A DNA stretch of 64,000 nucleotides from Oceaniferula flava (GTDB lineage Bacteria; Verrucomicrobiota; Verrucomicrobiia; Verrucomicrobiales; Akkermansiaceae): positions 124,001 through 188,000 of the forward strand of contig NZ_JAFBGL010000001.1 in assembly GCF_016811075.1 (NCBI RefSeq). Direction: 5' to 3'. The stretch's first letter is position 1; each line of letters opens with the position of its first letter. Shown piece by piece: positions 1,530-10,829 of the stretch. A program made the position numbers and the translations under genes. Under the pieces are notes generated by a model that made no database searches, was not told the origin of the DNA, and saw only the letters and a program-made list of their open reading frames with translations.

Positions 1530-1907
1530 TTACTTCTTGCCGAGTTCTGGCTGAAGTTTCTTTTCCAGCTGCTTCGGTGAGATCCCGTAGAACTTTTTGA
1601 TGTCGGTGCAAAAATGGCTGTAATAGAGATAGCCCAATTTCTCTCCAATTTCGTGAAGGTCCATCCCTTCGGTGATCATGCGTTTGGCGAGCAAAGCGCG
1701 GTGGTTGCAAAACAGATCCTTGGGTTTCAGCCCAATGGCGGCCTCAACATGGCGCTGCAGCTGAATCACGGTGAAGCCAAGCTCCTCTGCAACATTTTTC
1801 ACATTGAAGCCTTTTTCCTCGGCAAGTTGAAGGAGGTCGACTCCAGATTTGTCGACAACACGGTCTCCTTGTCTGAAGAATGGTGTGGGTGTGGCGGGTC
1901 TACTCAT
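1530..1907 (-). CDS. Stand-alone AraC-type DNA-binding protein
   Basis: A 125-residue protein that is almost entirely an AraC/XylS C-terminal DNA-binding domain. The first helix-turn-helix lies around VKNVAEELGFTVIQLQRHV, and the second around LHEIGEKLGYLYYSHFCTDIKKFYGISPKQ, matching the usual family ending. There is no effector-binding domain, so it either senses nothing itself or works with a partner. The ATG at 1907 (MSRPATP) is preferred; the longer frame from 1994 adds a segment unlike the family. It is transcribed away from the PhcB-like gene at 2138, and the shared 230-base intergenic region holds a strong inverted repeat (2060-2109). It is therefore a good candidate regulator of that cassette, which is an inference. 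Confidence 0.72.
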   Translation of the reverse strand: MSRPATPTPFFRQGDRVVDKSGVDLLQLAEEKGFNVKNVAEELGFTVIQLQRHVEAAIGLKPKDLFCNHRALLAKRMITEGMDLHEIGEKLGYLYYSHFCTDIKKFYGISPKQLEKKLQPELGKK

Positions 1908-2059
1908 GGTGGTGATTTTTCGTAAAACTCTTCCTATAGAGGGAATTATTGTTTGCGCGGGCTTGATAGTAAACGAGAAAGTGTAACTGCGCACGAATTT
2001 TTTTCCTGCTAGGTAGCTTTTGCCTGTAGATTTTTCTCTAAATATGCCAGTTTATAACA

Positions 2060-2137: not shown

Positions 2138-3589
2138 ATGTCCACAACAACAACGGTTCCCACCAATAGCAGTGTCAAATTTTCTAACAGCCAAGGCTAC
2201 ACTCTCAATGCTACGATTCTGAGGCTACGCCGATATTCCGTGTCATTTGAAATCTACAATCCTTACAGTATTGTTCAGCTTTCTGAAGTACTCAAGGATT
2301 TCAAGATTAGACTCAACGGGCGTCTGATCTATGAAGGACAAGCTGTGGTTTCCGGTTTGGTGAATACTGGTGTGCTGCTGGTTTGTGAGGTGACCCTAGC
2401 CGGAGGTTGGAAGGATGTTGATTTCTTGGCGCAGTCCCAAGAAGGAGGGTCGCTGGTGACGCAGTTTGATGATTTTGTAGATGATTGGAACCGGGCACAC
2501 CAGGTGTCCTCCGATTTTAAAATCAACGTCGCGGATATGCAGAACTTGATGATCGGAGTGAAGCGCTGGCTAGAGCAGATCGACTTGGGGATTCGCTCTA
2601 CCGATACCGAGGATAAAGATGGTCTGGAAAAGCAGGTGATTTCTGAAATCGAGGAACGGATGATGCAGGAGGTCAATCCCCTGATGAGTGACTTTGAAGC
2701 ATCTACGCGAAAAGTTTCCTTGGCGGATCAGCCGGCGCACAAGTTCTACGTTCGTCGGCATATGCATCCGCTGATGCTTTGCTCGCCATTTGCATATCGA
2801 GCTTTTAGCAAGCCTTTGGGGTATGCCGGTGATTATGAAATGGTGAATATGATGCTTCGGGATCCCTACGAGGGTGGCACCCTGTTTGCCAAAATGTTGA
2901 ACCGGACGTTCCTCAGCATCGATCCTGTGCAAGCGCACCGGAACCGGATTGATTACCTGGTTGAAAACCTCAAGAGTGAAGCTCAGAAAGCTGTGAGCGA
3001 AGGGCGTCGACTCAAGGTGCTTAACCTTGGCTGTGGACCGGCACAGGAAATTCAACGCTTTGTCAAAAATGAGGAAATTAGTGATCAGTGTGACTTCACG
3101 CTTCTCGACTTTAACAAGGAGACTCTCGACTACACCCACGGTCTTCTCGCTAAGATGAAATACGAGATGGGCCGTGGCACCAATTTCAAGATGATCGAAC
3201 GTTCCGTGCACCAGTTACTCAAGCAAGCGAGCAAAGGGGACGTCGATATGGACTGGGAATCGTATGATATGGTCTACTGTGCGGGGCTTTTTGATTACCT
3301 CTCACAGAAGGTCTGCAAGCGTTTGGTGGAGCTCTTTACCAAGCTGATCCGCCCCGGCGGAATGCTAATCACCACGAATGTTGCGTCGACGAACCCTCGT
3401 ATCGGGTGGATGGAATATGTTGTCGAATGGAACTTGATTTATCGTAACGATTGGGAGATGCTCGATCTCATCCCGCTCGACGGAACCATTCTCCAAACTG
3501 ATCTCAAACGAGATGCAACCGGCGTCAACCTGTTCTTGGAAATACGCAAGGTGGCGATGGATCCAATTTTCAAACCGACGAGTTTGTAA
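2138..3589 (+). CDS. PhcB-like SAM-dependent methyltransferase with PilZ-like N-terminus
   Basis: A 483-residue class I SAM methyltransferase. The SAM-binding glycine motif LNLGCGP is at about residues 296-302, and an acidic strand end (FTLLDFNKET) follows. Upstream, a signature around KPLGYAGDYEMVNMM is typical of proteins annotated as 3-hydroxypalmitic acid methyl ester biosynthesis proteins (PhcB of Ralstonia). About residues 10-95 form a beta-rich segment reminiscent of PilZ domains but without a clear c-di-GMP motif; a helical linker follows. The hybrid kinase starts 15 bases downstream, the same synthase-sensor order as phcBSR. Predicted role: methylation of a hydroxy fatty acid to a diffusible signal. 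The methyltransferase is certain from motifs; the substrate is inferred from family and context. No SD precedes the ATG. Confidence 0.8.
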   Translation: MSTTTTVPTNSSVKFSNSQGYTLNATILRLRRYSVSFEIYNPYSIVQLSEVLKDFKIRLNGRLIYEGQAVVSGLVNTGVLLVCEVTLAGGWKDVDFLAQSQEGGSLVTQFDDFVDDWNRAHQVSSDFKINVADMQNLMIGVKRWLEQIDLGIRSTDTEDKDGLEKQVISEIEERMMQEVNPLMSDFEASTRKVSLADQPAHKFYVRRHMHPLMLCSPFAYRAFSKPLGYAGDYEMVNMMLRDPYEGGTLFAKMLNRTFLSIDPVQAHRNRIDYLVENLKSEAQKAVSEGRRLKVLNLGCGPAQEIQRFVKNEEISDQCDFTLLDFNKETLDYTHGLLAKMKYEMGRGTNFKMIERSVHQLLKQASKGDVDMDWESYDMVYCAGLFDYLSQKVCKRLVELFTKLIRPGGMLITTNVASTNPRIGWMEYVVEWNLIYRNDWEMLDLIPLDGTILQTDLKRDATGVNLFLEIRKVAMDPIFKPTSL

Positions 3590-3604
3590 TGGGCGATCAG
3601 TATC

Positions 3605-6268
3605 ATGACTGATTCCATCAAAGATTTAAGATCACTGTATCGTAAGTCCCGGCGATTTGCCCGGCGGAAAAATTGTCGCCAAGCAGCTATCTTTGGTGCC
3701 GTCTTCATGATGGTGGGGGGCTGTTTGGATGCGGTGGTGTATCCTGAGCTATTGGTTAACTTTCTGCTCTACCGTGTGCTCGCGGCAGCGTTGTTGATCA
3801 TTTTCGGTATGGGAGTTACCCAGGTTAGATCAGATGCTCTGGCTCGAGTAATCGTTCATATCGTGGGGATCGTTCCTCTGGCATGCATGAGTTTAATGAT
3901 TGCTCAAGCCGACGGAGCAGCATCCTCTTACTATGCGGGGTTGAACCTAGTGCTGATGGGCGCCACGCTCTTGCTTAGGTGGTCGGCCGCAGACAGTGCG
4001 ATCAACATGCTGTTCTGTCTGGTCTTTTACGGCATGGCGGTTTTCAGCTACGGCAATACTTGGCGTGAGGCTTATGTCCCTGGCTACTTTATCTTTGTCA
4101 CTGGAGCGATTGCTTGCGCCGGAACTTACTTTTTCAACCAAGGCCGTTTTCGCGAGTTTTGTCTATCGAAGGATGTTCAGGATGCCAAAGACCAGTTGGA
4201 GCAGAGCTATAAGCAGCTGCAGGCGATGGATGAGACCAAGTCTCGGTTTTTCGCCAACATCAGTCATGAACTGAGAACGCCATTGACTCTGATACTTGGC
4301 CCGGCTGAGAACCTTCGCTCCAATCAGAAATATGCCAAGGATGTGGGTTTTCTGGAACACCTGGACACCATCGAGGATAACGCGCTTAGACTGCTGCGTT
4401 TGATCAATGACATTCTTGATTTGGTTAAACTGGATAGCGACGAAGCGCCACCTCGTCCGGAGGCTGTGAACGTGAAGGAGTTCATCAGCACGTTGAGCAA
4501 CCATCTTAAGGCGATTGCCGCGTTGAAAAGCATCGAGATTTCCTACACCAGCCACTGCGATCAGCAGGAGATGGTCTGGCTTGATCGTGATCGCTTGGAG
4601 AAAATCGTCCTGAATTTGGCGGTGAATGCGGTGAAGTTCACCGAGCCAGGAGGGGCGATCAAATTGGGAGCACATACCTCAAATGGTGTTCTGCAACTCA
4701 TTGTGGAAGACACTGGCGAGGGAATGTCTTCCGAGGAACTCGATAGTATTTTTGTTCGTTTTTGGCAGGCTGACATGTCAGCAAGACGTAGGCACCGTGG
4801 AGCCGGAATTGGCTTGGCTTTGGTCAAAAGTTTGACGGATAGCATGCAGGGCAAGATTAGCGTGCAGTCTGAGGTGAAAAAAGGAACAACCTTCAGTGTG
4901 AGCATCCCTGCACCGATGCCTGAAGCTGGAGTATTGGTGGAACCCAAACAAAATGCCAGCGATGTGCTCGAGCGGTTCAACGAGAAAGCCCGTCTCAGTG
5001 GTGCCGCCTCAATGGACGAGGTGTTACCGGATGGTGGTGCTGCACTGAAAGTGCTCGCTAAGAAACCTAAGGTTGAAGGGCAGAAGCCACGGGTCCTTGT
5101 GGCTGATGATGAGGATGCCATGCGCCATTTCATCGCTCGCCAGCTGGATGACTACGAAGTGGTGGGGGCCCGCGACGGAGACGAAGCGTGGACGCTCGTG
5201 CAAACGGAGCCTCTGGACCTGATTGTTCTCGATCTGATGATGCCAGGCATGGATGGTATCGAAGTGACCACCCGGATTCGGAGCTTTGCCGCCACGGCAC
5301 GCATCCCTATAATCCTGGTAACAGCGCAGGCGAGTGAAGAGCCTCGACTGAAGGCTCTCGAGGCGGGGGTGAATGATTTCATCGCCAAACCGTTCTCCAT
5401 CGTGGAATTACGTGTCAGGGTGAAAAACCTCCTGGCAAGCAGCGCCTTCGAGGTGAAGCTCGCCGAAAATAAGGTCAACCTTGAGAAAGCCTACAAGCAG
5501 CTGCAGGAGCAACGATCGATCCTCGTGCAAACCGAAAAGCTCTCTTCGCTAGGACGGATGAGTGCCGGTATCGTGCATGAGGTCAATAACCCTCTTAATT
5601 ATGCCAAGACGGCTCTGCATGCTCTCAAATCGTTTGAACGGCAGATCTCAGACGTTGATCGAGAGGACTACCTTGAAGTTCTGGGAGATGCCCAAGAAGG
5701 CGTAAATCGCGTGATCGGAATCGTCAGTGATCTGAGATCGTTCACCAGGGGGGATGCCGTTAGCCGCTCCAGCGTTTTGATCAAGAACACGATTGAGAGT
5801 GCTCGCCGCTTAAGCAGTGCGACCCTCTCTGGAGTGCACTTCGAGGTCAGCGCACCCGACAATCTCGAAGTCATCGGTCACGACGGACAGCTCTGCCAGT
5901 TGTTCATGAACTTGTTCCAGAATGCAGTGCGCGCGATTCAAGTGCGTGGCCCGGAGGGGGACGCTCCCCGGATCTCTGTGGTTGCAGGCCCGTCGATCGA
6001 TGGGGGGCATGTCATTGTTAAGGTCAGAGATAATGGCTGCGGTATTTCGAGAGAGGATATTGAGCGAATGTTCGAGCCGTTTTTCACCAAGAACGATGTC
6101 GGCGAGGGCATGGGGCTCGGTTTGAGCATCTGTCACCGCATTATCCGACAGCATGAAGCGCTGATTGATGTGCAGTCCGAGGTGGGAGTGTTCACAGAGA
6201 TAGCAATCCGCTTCAAAGGTGTTCCAAAAACGTCTAAGAATGAAAATTTACAGCTCGGCGCTGTTTGA
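3605..6268 (+). CDS. Hybrid sensor kinase with two histidine kinase modules (PhcS-like)
   Basis: An 887-residue membrane protein. About six hydrophobic segments (residues 25-180) precede a coiled coil and a first kinase with HELRTPL (His ~221), an N box (LNLAVNAVKF) and G boxes (EDTGEGM, GAGIGLAL). A receiver follows, with an acidic pair ~501, phospho-acceptor Asp ~543 in LDLMMPGMDG and Lys ~595. After a coiled coil comes a second kinase with HEVNNPLNY (His ~658), NLFQNAVRAI, DNGCGI and GEGMGLGLSI. Both kinases look intact. The second is of the type expected for PhcS. It is the middle gene of the cassette, 15 bases after the methyltransferase. The ligand is not evident from sequence; a membrane-dissolved fatty acid ester is the contextual guess. 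Confidence 0.88.
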   Translation: MTDSIKDLRSLYRKSRRFARRKNCRQAAIFGAVFMMVGGCLDAVVYPELLVNFLLYRVLAAALLIIFGMGVTQVRSDALARVIVHIVGIVPLACMSLMIAQADGAASSYYAGLNLVLMGATLLLRWSAADSAINMLFCLVFYGMAVFSYGNTWREAYVPGYFIFVTGAIACAGTYFFNQGRFREFCLSKDVQDAKDQLEQSYKQLQAMDETKSRFFANISHELRTPLTLILGPAENLRSNQKYAKDVGFLEHLDTIEDNALRLLRLINDILDLVKLDSDEAPPRPEAVNVKEFISTLSNHLKAIAALKSIEISYTSHCDQQEMVWLDRDRLEKIVLNLAVNAVKFTEPGGAIKLGAHTSNGVLQLIVEDTGEGMSSEELDSIFVRFWQADMSARRRHRGAGIGLALVKSLTDSMQGKISVQSEVKKGTTFSVSIPAPMPEAGVLVEPKQNASDVLERFNEKARLSGAASMDEVLPDGGAALKVLAKKPKVEGQKPRVLVADDEDAMRHFIARQLDDYEVVGARDGDEAWTLVQTEPLDLIVLDLMMPGMDGIEVTTRIRSFAATARIPIILVTAQASEEPRLKALEAGVNDFIAKPFSIVELRVRVKNLLASSAFEVKLAENKVNLEKAYKQLQEQRSILVQTEKLSSLGRMSAGIVHEVNNPLNYAKTALHALKSFERQISDVDREDYLEVLGDAQEGVNRVIGIVSDLRSFTRGDAVSRSSVLIKNTIESARRLSSATLSGVHFEVSAPDNLEVIGHDGQLCQLFMNLFQNAVRAIQVRGPEGDAPRISVVAGPSIDGGHVIVKVRDNGCGISREDIERMFEPFFTKNDVGEGMGLGLSICHRIIRQHEALIDVQSEVGVFTEIAIRFKGVPKTSKNENLQLGAV

Positions 6269-6284
6269 AACAGTATTTAATATA

Positions 6285-6307
6285 AATGTTAATAATTAGC
6301 TAACATT
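6285..6307. promoter_or_regulatory. AT-rich inverted repeat before the response regulator
   Basis: AATGTTA (6285-6291) and TAACATT (6301-6307) are perfect reverse complements with a 9-base spacer. They lie in a very AT-rich 98-base gap that also contains TATAAA-like stretches. The gap suggests the response regulator can be transcribed from its own promoter and may be autoregulated; this is inferred only. Confidence 0.3.
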
Positions 6308-6366
6308 AGATATAAATAAGCTTGTAGTATGTGTATTTTCAGATAAAAGGCGGAAGACGCACCGAT

Positions 6367-7554
6367 ATGACTGAATCACCTAATAAAGAGCACCTGATCT
6401 TATTCGTCGATGACGAGGAAAAAACTCGTAAGTATTTCGCCAGACTTTTTGGTCAAAATTTTGAGGTGCTTGTGGCTGAGGACGGCGTCCAAGCCTTGGA
6501 AATTTTCCGTGAGAATATGGATCGGATCGGTGTGGTGGTGACTGACCAACGCATGCCGAACATGACAGGCTCCCAGCTGCTTGAAAAAGTGGCGGAAATG
6601 AAGCCCACCTGTATCCGTATTCTTTCCACGGCCTATGCCGACGTCGATGCCGCTGTGGATTCGGTCAACAAAGGCGGCATTTACCGCTACGTCACCAAGC
6701 CTTGGGAGGTCAATGATCTCGAGATGACCTTGAACCGGGCCATGGAACGCTATGTTCTGGAAAAGGAACGCGGCACACTTTTAAAACAGAAGCTCTCCAG
6801 TGTGGAGATGCTGGCATCCTCAGACCGGGTGCTTTCCATCGCCACGATCGCGGTGATTGGTCACCCAGGCTTACGCCACGTCGGTCAGGCCCTGACTGCC
6901 CTCGTGCAGCTCGCGGAAGTGGGTGGCTCTGAGGATTCTGATGAAGCACCACTGGACCAAGCACTGAACTGGCGCGAACTCTATGGTCGCCACCTGTCTT
7001 ATCTCCGTTCCATCCACCAAGGTTTGACCCGTGATAAGCTGAAAGGCTTTGAGCTGGATTACAGTCGCACGGTCGCTGTGGGCGATGTCATGGGCCCATT
7101 GGTCGGTGGCAATGGCTACTTCGAATGGCTACGCGGTGAACCTTCAACCACTGGCTGGCCTGGACCAGCTGAAACCATGGCGGCTGAAATCAGCACTCTG
7201 CTGATGGCTCTGGAAGCGGTGATGCGCGATGCGGGTATTCTTCTGGTCTCTGAAATTCAGGGTGGCATTGAGTTCCGTCTGTCGTCCCGTTTGCTGGCGA
7301 GAAATCTGGAACCTCTGAGAACTGCGACCAAGGACGCACCATCTACGGAGTGCTTGGCCCTGGCCTCCTCGCTGTTCCGCCTGGCTGATGCTGGCGCTTT
7401 CTTCGAAGTGGTGCCGGAAGAAGGTAGAGACATGATTCGTTTCAAGGTCACCTTCGACCCAACGCGAAACCCCGACACGGGTGTCGCTGGTTGGGATTCG
7501 CTCATGGCCGCGTTGACTGGCAATGACGTCTTCTGGGCACGCTACGGCGGCTAA
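6367..7554 (+). CDS. Response regulator with degenerate kinase-like C-terminus (PhcR-like)
   Basis: A 395-residue protein. The N-terminal receiver shows Asp15-Asp16 in LFVDDEEK, the acceptor Asp in VVTDQRMPNMTG and the conserved Lys in YVTKPW. The rest is not a DNA-binding domain. It resembles a worn histidine kinase: a helix around AVIGHPGLRHVGQAL in the H-box position, and an ending (LASSLFRLADAGAFFEV then IRFKVTF) laid out like the last part of an ATPase domain but without the G boxes. PhcR of Ralstonia is likewise a receiver joined to a kinase-like domain. It probably acts by protein contact rather than as a transcription factor. The ATG at 6367 is preferred over 6331, which adds 12 unlikely residues. 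Confidence 0.8.
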   Translation: MTESPNKEHLILFVDDEEKTRKYFARLFGQNFEVLVAEDGVQALEIFRENMDRIGVVVTDQRMPNMTGSQLLEKVAEMKPTCIRILSTAYADVDAAVDSVNKGGIYRYVTKPWEVNDLEMTLNRAMERYVLEKERGTLLKQKLSSVEMLASSDRVLSIATIAVIGHPGLRHVGQALTALVQLAEVGGSEDSDEAPLDQALNWRELYGRHLSYLRSIHQGLTRDKLKGFELDYSRTVAVGDVMGPLVGGNGYFEWLRGEPSTTGWPGPAETMAAEISTLLMALEAVMRDAGILLVSEIQGGIEFRLSSRLLARNLEPLRTATKDAPSTECLALASSLFRLADAGAFFEVVPEEGRDMIRFKVTFDPTRNPDTGVAGWDSLMAALTGNDVFWARYGG

Positions 7555-7574
7555 GGCATTCATCCCTTACATTT

Positions 7575-8744
7575 ATGCACACAAAAAACCTCGCTGCTTT
7601 TACAGCGTTATCACTGATGTCACCTGCCGCGATTCTTGCGGACGGTTTTCACCTGGCTGGTCAATCTCCCGAAGCGGTTGGTAAAGGCAACGCATTTGTT
7701 GCCACGGCCAATACTGCAGCCGCTGTTTATTACAATGCAGCTGGCCTGACCCAGATCGATTCATCCTCTGTCCAAGTAGGATTTTACAGCATTTCCCTAG
7801 GGATCGAGGCCGATGTGGCTGGTGGCAAATACGATCTCGAACGTGAGGTCCAGTTCACCCCGCAGATTTACTCAGCTTTCCGACTCAATGAAAAGGCGGT
7901 GCTTGGCTTCGGCTTGAACTCACCCTTTGGTCTGGCTTCCGAGTGGGAAGACAACACCAGCTTCAGAAGCACCGCGACCACATCGGAGCTGAAATACGCC
8001 ACCTTCTGGGCGGTGGCAGGCTATGAAGTCACCGACACCCTGTCCGTGGGGGGCGGTATCGGGATTCACCATGCTGATATGGACCTGCGCCGTGGCATTT
8101 TCGCACCCGGTGATGAATTTGGTTTCAATGGCGATGATCAAGGTCTGTCGTGGACGCTCAGTGTGCTCTGGCAGCCGCATGAGAAACACTCGTTCGGTGC
8201 TGTCTATCGCAGCAAGACCGACTTCACCTTCGAAGGTGAGTCCGAGGCCGCTCCCTATGCCCCAGCCGAGAATGCCGAGCTGGATCTCACTACTCCGGCC
8301 ACTTTTGCGGTGGGCTATTCCTATCGACCCAATCAGTGTTGGAACTTCGAAGTCAATGTCGAGTGGGTGGACTGGGATGAACTTGGCACACTGACCCTGG
8401 AGCAAGACTCCGGTGACCTCGCCATCCCCTTCGAGTGGGAAGATTCCTTCATCTATTCCATCGGTGCCGAGTATGACTTTGGCAATGGTTACCTTGGGCG
8501 TATTGGTTACAACTACATCGAAAGTGCCCAGCCAGACGAATACTACAACCCGGGTGTTGGCGATGCCGACCGTCACTGGCTGACCTGCGGTATCGGCTAC
8601 AAGGGCGAGAGCTGGTCGTGGGATGCTGCCTATCAGTATGCCTTCTCCGATCGTGAGGTCGACTCTGCGCTCGATCCTGCTGTCAACGGCGACTACAAGT
8701 CACGTTTCCACTCGCTCAGCCTGACGGCTCGTTACGATTTCTAA
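7575..8744 (+). CDS. FadL/OmpP1-type outer-membrane channel for hydrophobic compounds
   Basis: A 389-residue outer-membrane beta barrel. It has a signal peptide, and the mature start DGFHLAGQSPEAVGKGNAF, followed by NTAAAVYYNAAGLTQI, is the FadL/TodX/OmpP1 hatch signature. Alternating beta strands run to a C-terminal aromatic (TARYDF), the usual barrel insertion signal. Family members move long-chain fatty acids and other hydrophobic molecules across the outer membrane. It begins 20 bases after the response regulator and is followed by a strong terminator, so it is probably the last gene of the cassette. A role in uptake or release of a fatty acid ester signal would fit but is inferred. Confidence 0.88.
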   Translation: MHTKNLAAFTALSLMSPAAILADGFHLAGQSPEAVGKGNAFVATANTAAAVYYNAAGLTQIDSSSVQVGFYSISLGIEADVAGGKYDLEREVQFTPQIYSAFRLNEKAVLGFGLNSPFGLASEWEDNTSFRSTATTSELKYATFWAVAGYEVTDTLSVGGGIGIHHADMDLRRGIFAPGDEFGFNGDDQGLSWTLSVLWQPHEKHSFGAVYRSKTDFTFEGESEAAPYAPAENAELDLTTPATFAVGYSYRPNQCWNFEVNVEWVDWDELGTLTLEQDSGDLAIPFEWEDSFIYSIGAEYDFGNGYLGRIGYNYIESAQPDEYYNPGVGDADRHWLTCGIGYKGESWSWDAAYQYAFSDREVDSALDPAVNGDYKSRFHSLSLTARYDF

Positions 8745-9059: not shown

Positions 9060-9158
9060 AACAGCTTAAGCATGATATCACGATTGATGCAGATCAAGAG
9101 GTAAATCGAGACAGCCTTTGTGATTGCCATCCGCTGCTGCGCTGCGTCTTATCGTGGT

Positions 9159-10829
9159 ATGCCAGATTCCGCGATGAAGCGACTCCGTCGACTTGGACTG
9201 TTGTTGCCTGTGTTTTCTCTCCGAAGGGACCACGATTTGGGGATCGGGGATACTCTGGCACTGCGTCAGGCGGTCGATTGGGCTGCCGCTCACCACGTTG
9301 GCTTTTTACAGCTCCTACCTATCAATGAAACGGGAGCTGACAGCAGCCCATACAATGCCATCAGCTCGGTGGCCCTTGATCCGGTGCTCATCGCCATGGA
9401 GTTGATCCCAGAGATTGATTCCGCCGTCATTGAGTCAGAATCGAGAGCTTTTCAGGAATCGGCATTGGTCGATTATCCCCCGACCGGTGCCGCCAAGTGG
9501 CGACTGCTCAAGCGTGGTTACCAAATCTATCAAGCCACCGAAAAACAGGACCCCGAGTTCGATGCTTTCTGTCAGGCGGAGCAAGATTGGCTGGTGCCGT
9601 ATACCAAATACCGTTGGTTGATGGAGCAGGCCGGCACCGAGGAGTGGGACCTCTGGCCCGAGGCCTATAACAGCGCGGAAAAAGCGGAACGCTGGCTGGC
9701 ACAGCAAGCAGGTGCTGAGCAGGGGATGCGTTTTTACGCTTGGGTGCAATGGCATGCATTTAGTCAGTGGCGTGAGCTACGAGAGTATGCGGCAGAGCGT
9801 GATGTGAAGCTGATGGGGGACATTCCCATCGGGATTTCCTATTCCAGTGCGGATGTGTTTTTTGAGCCACAGTGGTTTGATCTTAGCCTCTCCGGTGGCT
9901 CGCCGCCTGAAAAGGTGTTCAAAGAAGATGCCTTTGCCTGCCAGTGGGGGCAGAACTGGGGTGTGCCGATCTACAACTGGAAGGCGCTGAGAAAAGATAA
10001 CTTCTCATGGTGGCGCCGCCGGATTGAGAAACTCACCGATGTGTTTCACATTTTTCGCATCGATCACATTCTCGGCTTTTACCGGATTTTCAGTTTCCCC
10101 TGGCGCCCGAACCGCAATGCCGAGTTCTTGGGCTTGAGTAAGCCCAAGGCGAAAAAACTCACCGGAGGGAGACTGCCGAAATTTCACCCCTTTCCGGATG
10201 ACACGGTGGCGCACAAAAAGAGTAACCTCGCAGCTGGGGATGAATACTTGAAGATGGTGTTAGAGGCAGCTGGCGATAGCGAAGTGGTGGGGGAAGATCT
10301 CGGCTGTGTGCCGGATTATGTTCGCCCTCATTTGGCCAAGCTAGGCATTGCCGGCTTTAAAATTTGCCACTGGGAAGAGGCTGCCAAAGGGAAGGCTGTG
10401 CCGGGCAGTGAGTATCCAGAATGTTCTTTCGCCACATACGCGACTCATGATCACGAATCCATTCCCGCCTTGTGGAATACTTTGGTGGGGATGCTGGATG
10501 GTCCGGATCGTAAGGGGGCGCTGGAAGGTTTGACCCTGCTCAGCGACTTCGCCGGTTTGCCGAAAGGCAAGGATGCCAAGGTTTATGGGCACTATGACCC
10601 TGTGATCAAGTGGGCGCTATTCGAGAGCTTGTTCCAAAGCCGCTCCAACTACGCCGCGATCATGATCACGGACCTCATTAATAGCTGCAAGCGGATCAAT
10701 ATTCCAGGCACGGTGGGTGGTGAAAATTGGCGCTATCGTTTGCCGTGGGAACTGGCTGACATGCCAGAAGCTCTGCAGGTGGAATGCCGACGGATGAGTG
10801 AACTCATCCACTTGAGCCAGCGCGATTAG
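9159..10829 (+). CDS. malQ: 4-alpha-glucanotransferase (amylomaltase, GH77)
   Basis: A cytoplasmic enzyme that transfers alpha-1,4-glucan segments between maltodextrins or glycogen. The start LLLPVFSLRRDHDLGIGD and the segment FLQLLPINETGADSSPY are typical of GH77. FRIDHILGFYR carries the nucleophile Asp, GEDLGCVPDYV the acid/base Glu, and ATHDHESI the transition-state Asp region. At about 556 residues it has the size of the short bacterial form. Possible starts are the GTG at 9120 and ATGs at 9159 and 9174; I chose 9159. It is a single-gene unit, and its stop overlaps the convergent coaB stop by 4 bases. No other glycogen gene is nearby. Confidence 0.9.
   Translation: MPDSAMKRLRRLGLLLPVFSLRRDHDLGIGDTLALRQAVDWAAAHHVGFLQLLPINETGADSSPYNAISSVALDPVLIAMELIPEIDSAVIESESRAFQESALVDYPPTGAAKWRLLKRGYQIYQATEKQDPEFDAFCQAEQDWLVPYTKYRWLMEQAGTEEWDLWPEAYNSAEKAERWLAQQAGAEQGMRFYAWVQWHAFSQWRELREYAAERDVKLMGDIPIGISYSSADVFFEPQWFDLSLSGGSPPEKVFKEDAFACQWGQNWGVPIYNWKALRKDNFSWWRRRIEKLTDVFHIFRIDHILGFYRIFSFPWRPNRNAEFLGLSKPKAKKLTGGRLPKFHPFPDDTVAHKKSNLAAGDEYLKMVLEAAGDSEVVGEDLGCVPDYVRPHLAKLGIAGFKICHWEEAAKGKAVPGSEYPECSFATYATHDHESIPALWNTLVGMLDGPDRKGALEGLTLLSDFAGLPKGKDAKVYGHYDPVIKWALFESLFQSRSNYAAIMITDLINSCKRINIPGTVGGENWRYRLPWELADMPEALQVECRRMSELIHLSQRD

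Follow-up and report, generated by a model that had tools for sequence, protein, structure and literature searches.

A putative Phc-type signalling operon in Oceaniferula flava with an apparent kinase relic in its regulator

What can a response regulator do when neither a recognisable DNA-binding domain nor a recognisable kinase follows its receiver? This question is raised by a locus within the 64,000-nucleotide stretch of Oceaniferula flava DNA analysed here (the window), in which a membrane sensor with two kinases is followed by such a regulator. The two had been singled out as a pair in a preliminary description; the pair was confirmed, and the operon is wider, with a methyltransferase gene before it and a gene for a FadL-type channel after it belonging to it too. 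The order of methyltransferase, sensor and receiver protein is common to the window and to the PhcBSRQ operon of Ralstonia, Cupriavidus, Paraburkholderia and Janthinobacterium, and the methyltransferase shares 42.8% identity over 456 residues (E 5e-129) with PhcB of Cupriavidus pinatubonensis (L095). We read positions 2138-8744 of the window as a Phc-type signalling operon in which a signal would be turned into a protein contact made by the regulator, and we put the probability of this reading at about 0.55. Loci and genomes are cited by L and G numbers, and E-values against PhcB and PhcS refer to a small local sequence set.

The regulator and its second half

The regulator open reading frame (ORF) covers 6331-7554, and a start at ATG 6367 gives 395 residues, compared with 394-398 in same-genus relatives. 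Pfam matches of the sensor and the regulator were considered up to E 1; at this level the regulator showed a receiver only, and no HisKA, HATPase_c or DNA-binding domain. Its second half was compared by hhalign within three groups of regulators, namely group A (the window and 11 relatives), group B (n = 10) and class C (n = 10), whose profiles held 32 of 34 rows after L038 (an 18-residue ORF fragment) and L059 were left out. Group A matched class C with a probability of 98.8% over nearly the full length and of 96.3% over 221 columns once the linker and the greater part of the H box had been cut away, and it matched group B with 98.5%. Class C in turn matched kinase 2 of the sensor with 99.9% (99.8% when trimmed), the PhcS kinase with 99.8%, kinase 1 with 99.6% and PhcR with 98.4%; reversed-sequence controls gave 0.1-0.6%. 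Because the match to class C is co-linear and class C matches kinases, the ancestry of the second half as a worn-out histidine kinase is supported by way of these intermediates. The earlier proposal of a regulator that keeps its receiver and carries a kinase without ATP-binding boxes thus stands, through class C and with no direct match.

The loss appears to be graded. Among the six of ten class C regulators examined, HATPase_c lay above the Pfam cut-off in L060, L066, L067, L068 and L069 and below it in L054; in the five of 22 group A and B regulators examined (the window, L041, L046, L048 and L050), Pfam recognised no kinase. The second half of the L067 regulator also matches solved kinases, including ZraS 9jfj (6.7e-7) and 2c2a, and its LvrB match spans residues 32-373. 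No solved chain was matched by residues 152-407 of the window's regulator up to E 10. In all ten class C relics, the N-box Asn is gone, as are both outer G2 glycines and the Glu that follows the His; five have lost the His itself, and all ten retain the G1 Asp and first Gly and the middle G2 Gly. From these counts we infer an order of loss, which is set out further below; the N-box Asn is kept by kinase 2 in 34 of 34 cases. In the window's regulator, no N, G1 or G2 box was seen in the hhalign alignment, and the residue aligned with the H-box position reads as Pro. A His stands one position before this site in the window, L035, L037 and L039, and not in L036 and L040, and a one-residue shift is possible.

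Conservation falls along the protein. Identity to the regulators of other genera (L041-L046) is 65-77% in the receiver, 37-46% in the linker-DHp part and 23-31% in the catalytic relic, and in L053, which is not counted in these ranges, 58% in the receiver and 23% in the relic; kinase 2 as a whole keeps 43-53% between genera. Within the genus, the relic shows 53-64% identity versus 74-79% for the receiver. The C-terminal tail carries a motif, N-D/E-x-F/L-W, found in 12 of 12 group A and five of ten class C regulators and in none of group B. Since this motif recurs where the relic has diverged, the tail is a candidate contact site. Together, the relic and the lack of a recognised DNA-binding domain make protein contact a likely output, as had been suggested, with the target itself a part of the working proposed below.

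A model of the whole regulator, built with 43 PhcQ rows, reached a mean predicted local distance difference test (pLDDT) score of 70.5 with a good receiver. Behind the DHp part it shows a helix, two strands, two helices and two strands (pLDDT 65-84), which is the order of a small catalytic domain. Its best Foldseek match in the PDB was LvrB (4.8e-9 over 405 columns). The model of R. pickettii PhcQ (pLDDT 88.5) has a similar order of elements, and LvrB ranked 44th there among receiver matches of like E-value; in VIA-align, receiver domains fill the matches listed for both models. The two models share PhcQ alignment rows and hence are not independent. As a check on the second half, structure prediction gave a divided answer, in which the catalytic-type element order and the LvrB match speak for a kinase and the poorly modelled DHp part speaks against it.

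The sensor and its Phc-type relatives

The sensor has H boxes at residues 221 and 658, with N, G1, F and G2 boxes in both kinases. Catalytic residues were counted in 27 long sensors (the window's and 26 relatives). All seven positions scored in kinase 2 (His658, Asn773, Asp809, Gly811, Gly835, Gly837 and Gly839) are intact in 27/27. In kinase 1, eight of the nine positions (His221, Glu222, Asn341, Asp369, Gly371, Gly373, Gly399 and Gly401) are intact in 26/27, the exception always being L058, and the ninth, Gly403, is intact in all 27. Among the positions scored in the internal receiver, Asp543, Thr573 and Lys595 are kept throughout, Asp501 is Glu in eight sensors, and Asp502 is Ser in L058. 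Rows of the kinase 1 profile were chosen by an H-box pattern, which makes their H counts uninformative; the count in the 27 sensors was made without it. The catalytic residues scored in the window's two kinases and receiver are thus intact, and the kinases are apparently working, in agreement with the two complete kinases around an intact receiver that had first been noted. The L058 sensor, in which kinase 1 lacks the His, the Asn and most of the scored glycines and kinase 2 and Asp543 are intact, seems to hold a pseudokinase within the sensor.

Kinase 2 is 35% identical to the PhcS kinase over 255 residues (2e-44), and the similarity of kinase 1 is much weaker (1e-8). In two same-genus sensors, L038 (462 residues, G005) and L039 (460 residues, G006), the membrane part is joined directly to kinase 2, and the sensors of L065-L068 (families f2 and f4) are also short, at 488-515 residues. 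Kinase 1 and the receiver, missing from L038 and L039, thus form an extra cassette, and the part that always accompanies the regulator is kinase 2. The idea that the long sensor is PhcS fused to PhcR was considered and rejected, as the internal receiver falls outside the group of PhcR and PhcQ receivers and the kinase 1-receiver unit sits between the PhcS membrane part and the PhcS kinase.

Phc loci were collected as the best 80 of at least 580 confirmed methyltransferase relatives in named genomes, by title mostly Burkholderiales and including Candidatus Nitrotoga (L132), plus one plasmid locus. R. pickettii proteins were used to score the 81 loci, and gene names were given from similarity inside the loci and from published operon descriptions (PMC8578825, PMC10653808). 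The order PhcB-PhcS-PhcR-PhcQ was found in 64 and the same order preceded by PhcX in six (70/81 together); the remaining 11 are fragmented, repeated, or without PhcR or PhcQ. Four of the 81 loci (L091, L113, L128 and L146) have PhcQ, and no PhcR was found in them. Unlike the PhcBSRQ operon, the window has no separate PhcR, as no plus-strand ORF of at least 100 residues lies between sensor and regulator, and its sensor carries the extra kinase-receiver cassette. The FadL and AraC neighbours and the apparently different phylum likewise set the window apart. In Paraburkholderia and a Burkholderia (L070-L085 and L149), PhcR is little more than a receiver, in ORFs of 140-253 residues (L070 annotated as 134); judged from these sequences, a second member of the operon has here lost its kinase half.

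The regulator looks PhcQ-like, and we use this term for it in preference to PhcQ. It shares with PhcQ the receiver group, the place as last regulator of the operon and, in the case of R. pickettii PhcQ, the absence of a Pfam kinase; it differs in length (395 versus 335 residues) and in that the second halves match only with the linker. The assignment follows from kinase class: the kinase tree places class C relics with kinase 2 and PhcS, and PhcR with kinase 1, at a node of 94/89 that is not starred and carries a long-branch warning. In receiver trees, the internal receiver stands outside a group formed by those of the regulators, PhcQ and PhcR. In one of them, a very long-branched unrelated sequence, OTHER_L002, also fell into this group, and three such sequences fell in with the internal receivers. 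In the best receiver tree, the regulators are joined with PhcR at an unsupported node (37/0), and the approximately unbiased (AU) test rejected neither regulators with PhcQ (p 0.46) nor PhcQ with PhcR (p 0.51). Orthology of the regulator to PhcR was considered and is not favoured by kinase class; the receivers do not decide between PhcR and PhcQ. The preliminary description had pointed to PhcR homologues, which turned out to keep their boxes. Among 57 PhcR second halves (those of up to 180 residues and the short PhcR of L077 were left out of the profile), the His is kept in 57/57, the N-box Asn in 54/57 and the G-box residues in 54-57, whereas the regulator has lost its N and G boxes and probably its phospho-His, and looks nearer to PhcQ.

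Receiver-controlled histidine kinases offer a further comparison. PhcR and LvrB have a receiver, signalling helix, DHp and catalytic domain in common with the regulator; LvrB is described as a live kinase (PMC13269768) and PhcR keeps its boxes, whereas those of the window's regulator are lost. LvrA of Leptospira combines kinase, receiver and kinase in one chain beside a receiver-kinase protein, like the window. It is the closest described protein with this order and the sensor's best NCBIfam match (5.8e-80 over residues 190-860), at 269.4 bits where the curated cut-off is 1200. Published work describes LvrA as cytosolic with a PAS domain (PMC5863495), whereas the window's sensor has a PhcS-type membrane domain. 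In LvrA, phosphotransfer from His218 is reported both to Asp524 of the same protein and to LvrB (PMC5863495).

The locus, its presumed signal and its proposed working

Coordinates of the features are given in Table 1. The gap between methyltransferase and sensor is 15 bases. Gene order was compared in 35 stretches around regulator relatives, several of them short. A same-strand sensor lies upstream of the regulator in 33, and the remaining two have a regulator truncated at a contig end. Of the 22 stretches with a methyltransferase, 11 have a divergent AraC-type relative no more than 400 bases away from it, and 13 have a FadL-type gene, at varying positions; in five of the 22, this gene follows the regulator directly, on the same strand and no more than 550 bases away. 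In rhizobia, a FadL protein is reported to act on long-chain signals (PMC9938287). The gene at 9120-10829, tentatively read as a 4-alpha-glucanotransferase, is near the regulator in seven of eight same-genus stretches, and only in L035 and the window does the FadL gene stand between the two.

Table 1. Features of the locus in window coordinates
Feature	Position	Strand	Basis
Small AraC-type helix-turn-helix (HTH) protein, candidate transcriptional partner	1530-1994	-	divergent; Pfam HTH_18 1.7e-14
PhcB-type S-adenosylmethionine (SAM) methyltransferase, presumed signal synthase	2138-3589	+	PhcB similarity; Methyltransf_31 1.3e-9
Sensor, membrane domain-kinase 1-receiver-kinase 2, 887 residues	3605-6268	+	ORF, Pfam, residue counts
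Membrane sensor domain, PhcS type, weakly MASE8-like	3662-4189	+	MASE8 0.0011 (below Pfam cut-off); BLAST to PhcS membrane part 7e-12
Kinase 1 (HisKA and HATPase_c), His221 codon 4265-4267	4190-4954	+	Pfam; residues
Internal receiver, Asp543 codon 5231-5233	5093-5422	+	Pfam Response_reg 5.5e-28
Kinase 2 (HisKA and HATPase_c), PhcS type, His658 codon 5576-5578	5441-6214	+	PhcS kinase similarity
Regulator, receiver and apparent kinase relic	6367-7554	+	ORF from GTG 6331; ATG 6367 likelier start
Regulator receiver, phospho-acceptor Asp codon 6544-6546	6397-6726	+	Pfam Response_reg 2.5e-18
Signalling helix and DHp-like helices, phospho-His probably lost	6739-7065	+	hhalign, alignment, low-confidence model helices from about residue 151
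Apparent catalytic-domain relic, boxes lost	7066-7470	+	hhalign; model blocks pLDDT 65-84 from model residue 261
C-terminal tail ending GNDVFWARYGG	7471-7551	+	recurring tail motif
FadL/TodX-type outer-membrane channel, candidate port for fatty-acyl signal	7575-8744	+	Pfam Toluene_X 1.3e-51

In a sample of the phylum, the methyltransferase was found at E 1e-30 or better in 17 of 288 genomes (the window's included) and in 10 of 152 genera, and the Phc-type system is patchy there. Within 14 genomes of the genus, it was found in the window's genome, G003, G005, G006, G007 and G011. Counts of its absence leave out G016, G048 and G074, which have none at E 1e-10 and whose sensors lie at or near contig ends. 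In L038 (G005), the regulator match at 1097-2293 contains one in-frame TAG, and sensor and methyltransferase are present.

Since the Phc signal of Ralstonia is a 3-hydroxy fatty acid methyl ester, a signal of this kind is a candidate for the window's operon by analogy. From the anatomy of the locus, we infer the following working. The PhcB-like enzyme would make a methylated lipid signal, the FadL-type channel may let it cross the outer membrane, and the PhcS-type membrane domain would sense it. Kinase 1 would then phosphorylate the internal receiver, which would gate kinase 2, and kinase 2 would phosphorylate the separate regulator. Phosphorylation would alter the signalling helix of the regulator, so that the dead fold and the C-terminal tail could dock on another protein. 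This would most likely be a transcription factor, as in the PhcQ-PhcA pair, and the divergent AraC-type protein is the local candidate. In that pair, PhcQ is reported to bind PhcA in pull-down and bimolecular fluorescence complementation (BiFC) assays and to protect it from degradation (PMC13320629), and a phcQ mutant is reported to change 96.8% of the positively signal-dependent genes (PMC8578825).

Several observations weigh against this reading. In direct hhalign comparison with four kinase profiles, the second half of the window's group gave probabilities of 0.2-2.4%, and groups A and B with the linker included gave at most 1.8%. In the regulator model, the helices of residues 151-260, the DHp part, are poor (pLDDT 40-58), the LvrB match has a TM-score of 0.30 and only a narrow lead over receiver-only matches at 1.3e-8, and the 50 VIA-align rows listed span only the receiver and the adjoining helix. 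Among members of the genus, only the window and G011 were seen to have a FadL gene next to the locus. No PhcB-like gene was found at E 1e-10 in G009 (98% complete), G013 (97%) and G045 (95%), the first two of the window's genus and the third of the same family, which all keep sensor, regulator and AraC-type gene (L040, L036 and L049, respectively). Lastly, one study reports that Ralstonia PhcQ is needed for signal production and not for transduction to PhcA (PMC6989110).

This last report would suit a regulator that acts back on its own sensor: a dead DHp half of the sensor's own kinase class would pair with the sensor's DHp and tune its kinase or phosphatase activity, as a feedback element or a phosphate sink. 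Such a target would also agree with the finding that, of the kinases compared, kinase 2 and PhcS lie closest to the class C relics, and with a linker-DHp part that is better kept than the relic, if somewhat below the level of kinase 2. The binding and protection of PhcA by PhcQ argue for a different partner, and we hold a sensor target to be unlikely. The same degree of doubt attaches to the idea that the methyltransferase makes no fatty-acyl methyl ester, with the cluster sensing another cue and the enzyme modifying another substrate. The enzyme was matched by generic methyltransferase models only (Pfam and NCBIfam profiles), and its sequence names no substrate; G009, G013 and G045 keep the sensor and the regulator in the enzyme's absence, which means that its product is not the sensor's sole use there. 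Its 43% identity to PhcB over nearly the whole length, the Phc gene order and the FadL-type neighbour nevertheless speak for a Phc-type signal.

A classical multi-step phosphorelay, from His221 through Asp543 and His658 to the Asp of the regulator with kinase 2 mainly a phosphotransfer module, would match the kinase-receiver-kinase order and the intact acceptors, and a phosphorelay had been suggested at the outset. In the strict sense it is not supported, and we consider it quite improbable. No Hpt model appeared among the Pfam matches of sensor and regulator up to E 1 (a search that did not extend to HPt genes in the rest of the genome), the sensors of G005 and G006 do without kinase 1 and receiver, kinase 1 is dead and kinase 2 intact in L058, and the ATP-binding residues that kinase 2 keeps in 27/27 sensors would be needless in a mere transfer module. 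A receiver-gated kinase 2 fits better. That the second half of the regulator is a non-kinase domain which replaced the kinase in this clade, as the absence of a direct match to a kinase profile or solved chain might suggest, is very unlikely given the linker-free co-linear match to class C at 96.3% (reversed control 0.1%) and the catalytic-type order of helices and strands in the model.

PhcQ-type regulators and the meaning of the locus

The comparison was extended to PhcQ with 44 of 75 rows (310-345 residues, no near-identical sequences), which entered the structure alignments without L070. Second halves of PhcQ and of the regulators matched by hhalign with 90.8-95.2% when the linker was included and with 8-20% without it, against 0.2-1.7% for reversed controls; linker-cut PhcQ gave 0.8, 10.6 and 0.4% with groups A, B and C, respectively. 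This comparison makes it likely that the two share ancestry over their whole length, and it is plausible that the PhcQ core is a kinase relic as well. Arg R154 of the signalling helix is invariant in the window and the 43 PhcQ rows, and a Ralstonia phcQ R154C mutant is reported to behave much like a deletion (PMC6989110), the numbering of the two being assumed to match.

We tentatively propose, with more doubt than confidence, that PhcQ-type regulators, Ralstonia PhcQ included, are receiver-controlled pseudo-histidine kinases whose dead fold serves as a clamp switched by phosphorylation. A kinase of the sensor's own class would have been joined to a receiver and would have lost its chemistry stepwise: first the N-box Asn together with the outer G2 glycines and the Glu that follows the H box, then the phospho-His, and last the remaining G boxes. 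If true, this would explain the C-terminal part of PhcQ, which a Ralstonia study terms uncharacterized (PMC6989110), and the class C, A and B series would hold the intermediates. The graded series from a recognisable to an unrecognisable kinase, in seemingly the same operon position, makes this a testable proposal for that part of PhcQ.

The genome of the window contains ACACCTACGGGTGGCAGC, which would be the 16S rRNA target of probe EUB338-III (Verrucomicrobia) and makes this phylum probable. In the open-licence literature, no link between Phc and Verrucomicrobia was found; among the papers listed, the one with both phcBSR and Verrucomicrobi terms is a soil-community study. Phc signalling has been described from Ralstonia and its relatives, and the loci presented here place Phc-type signalling in an apparently verrucomicrobial lineage. 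A single genus in it shows the sensor both with and without the kinase-receiver cassette, and those species that have sensor and regulator without the methyltransferase could listen without speaking.

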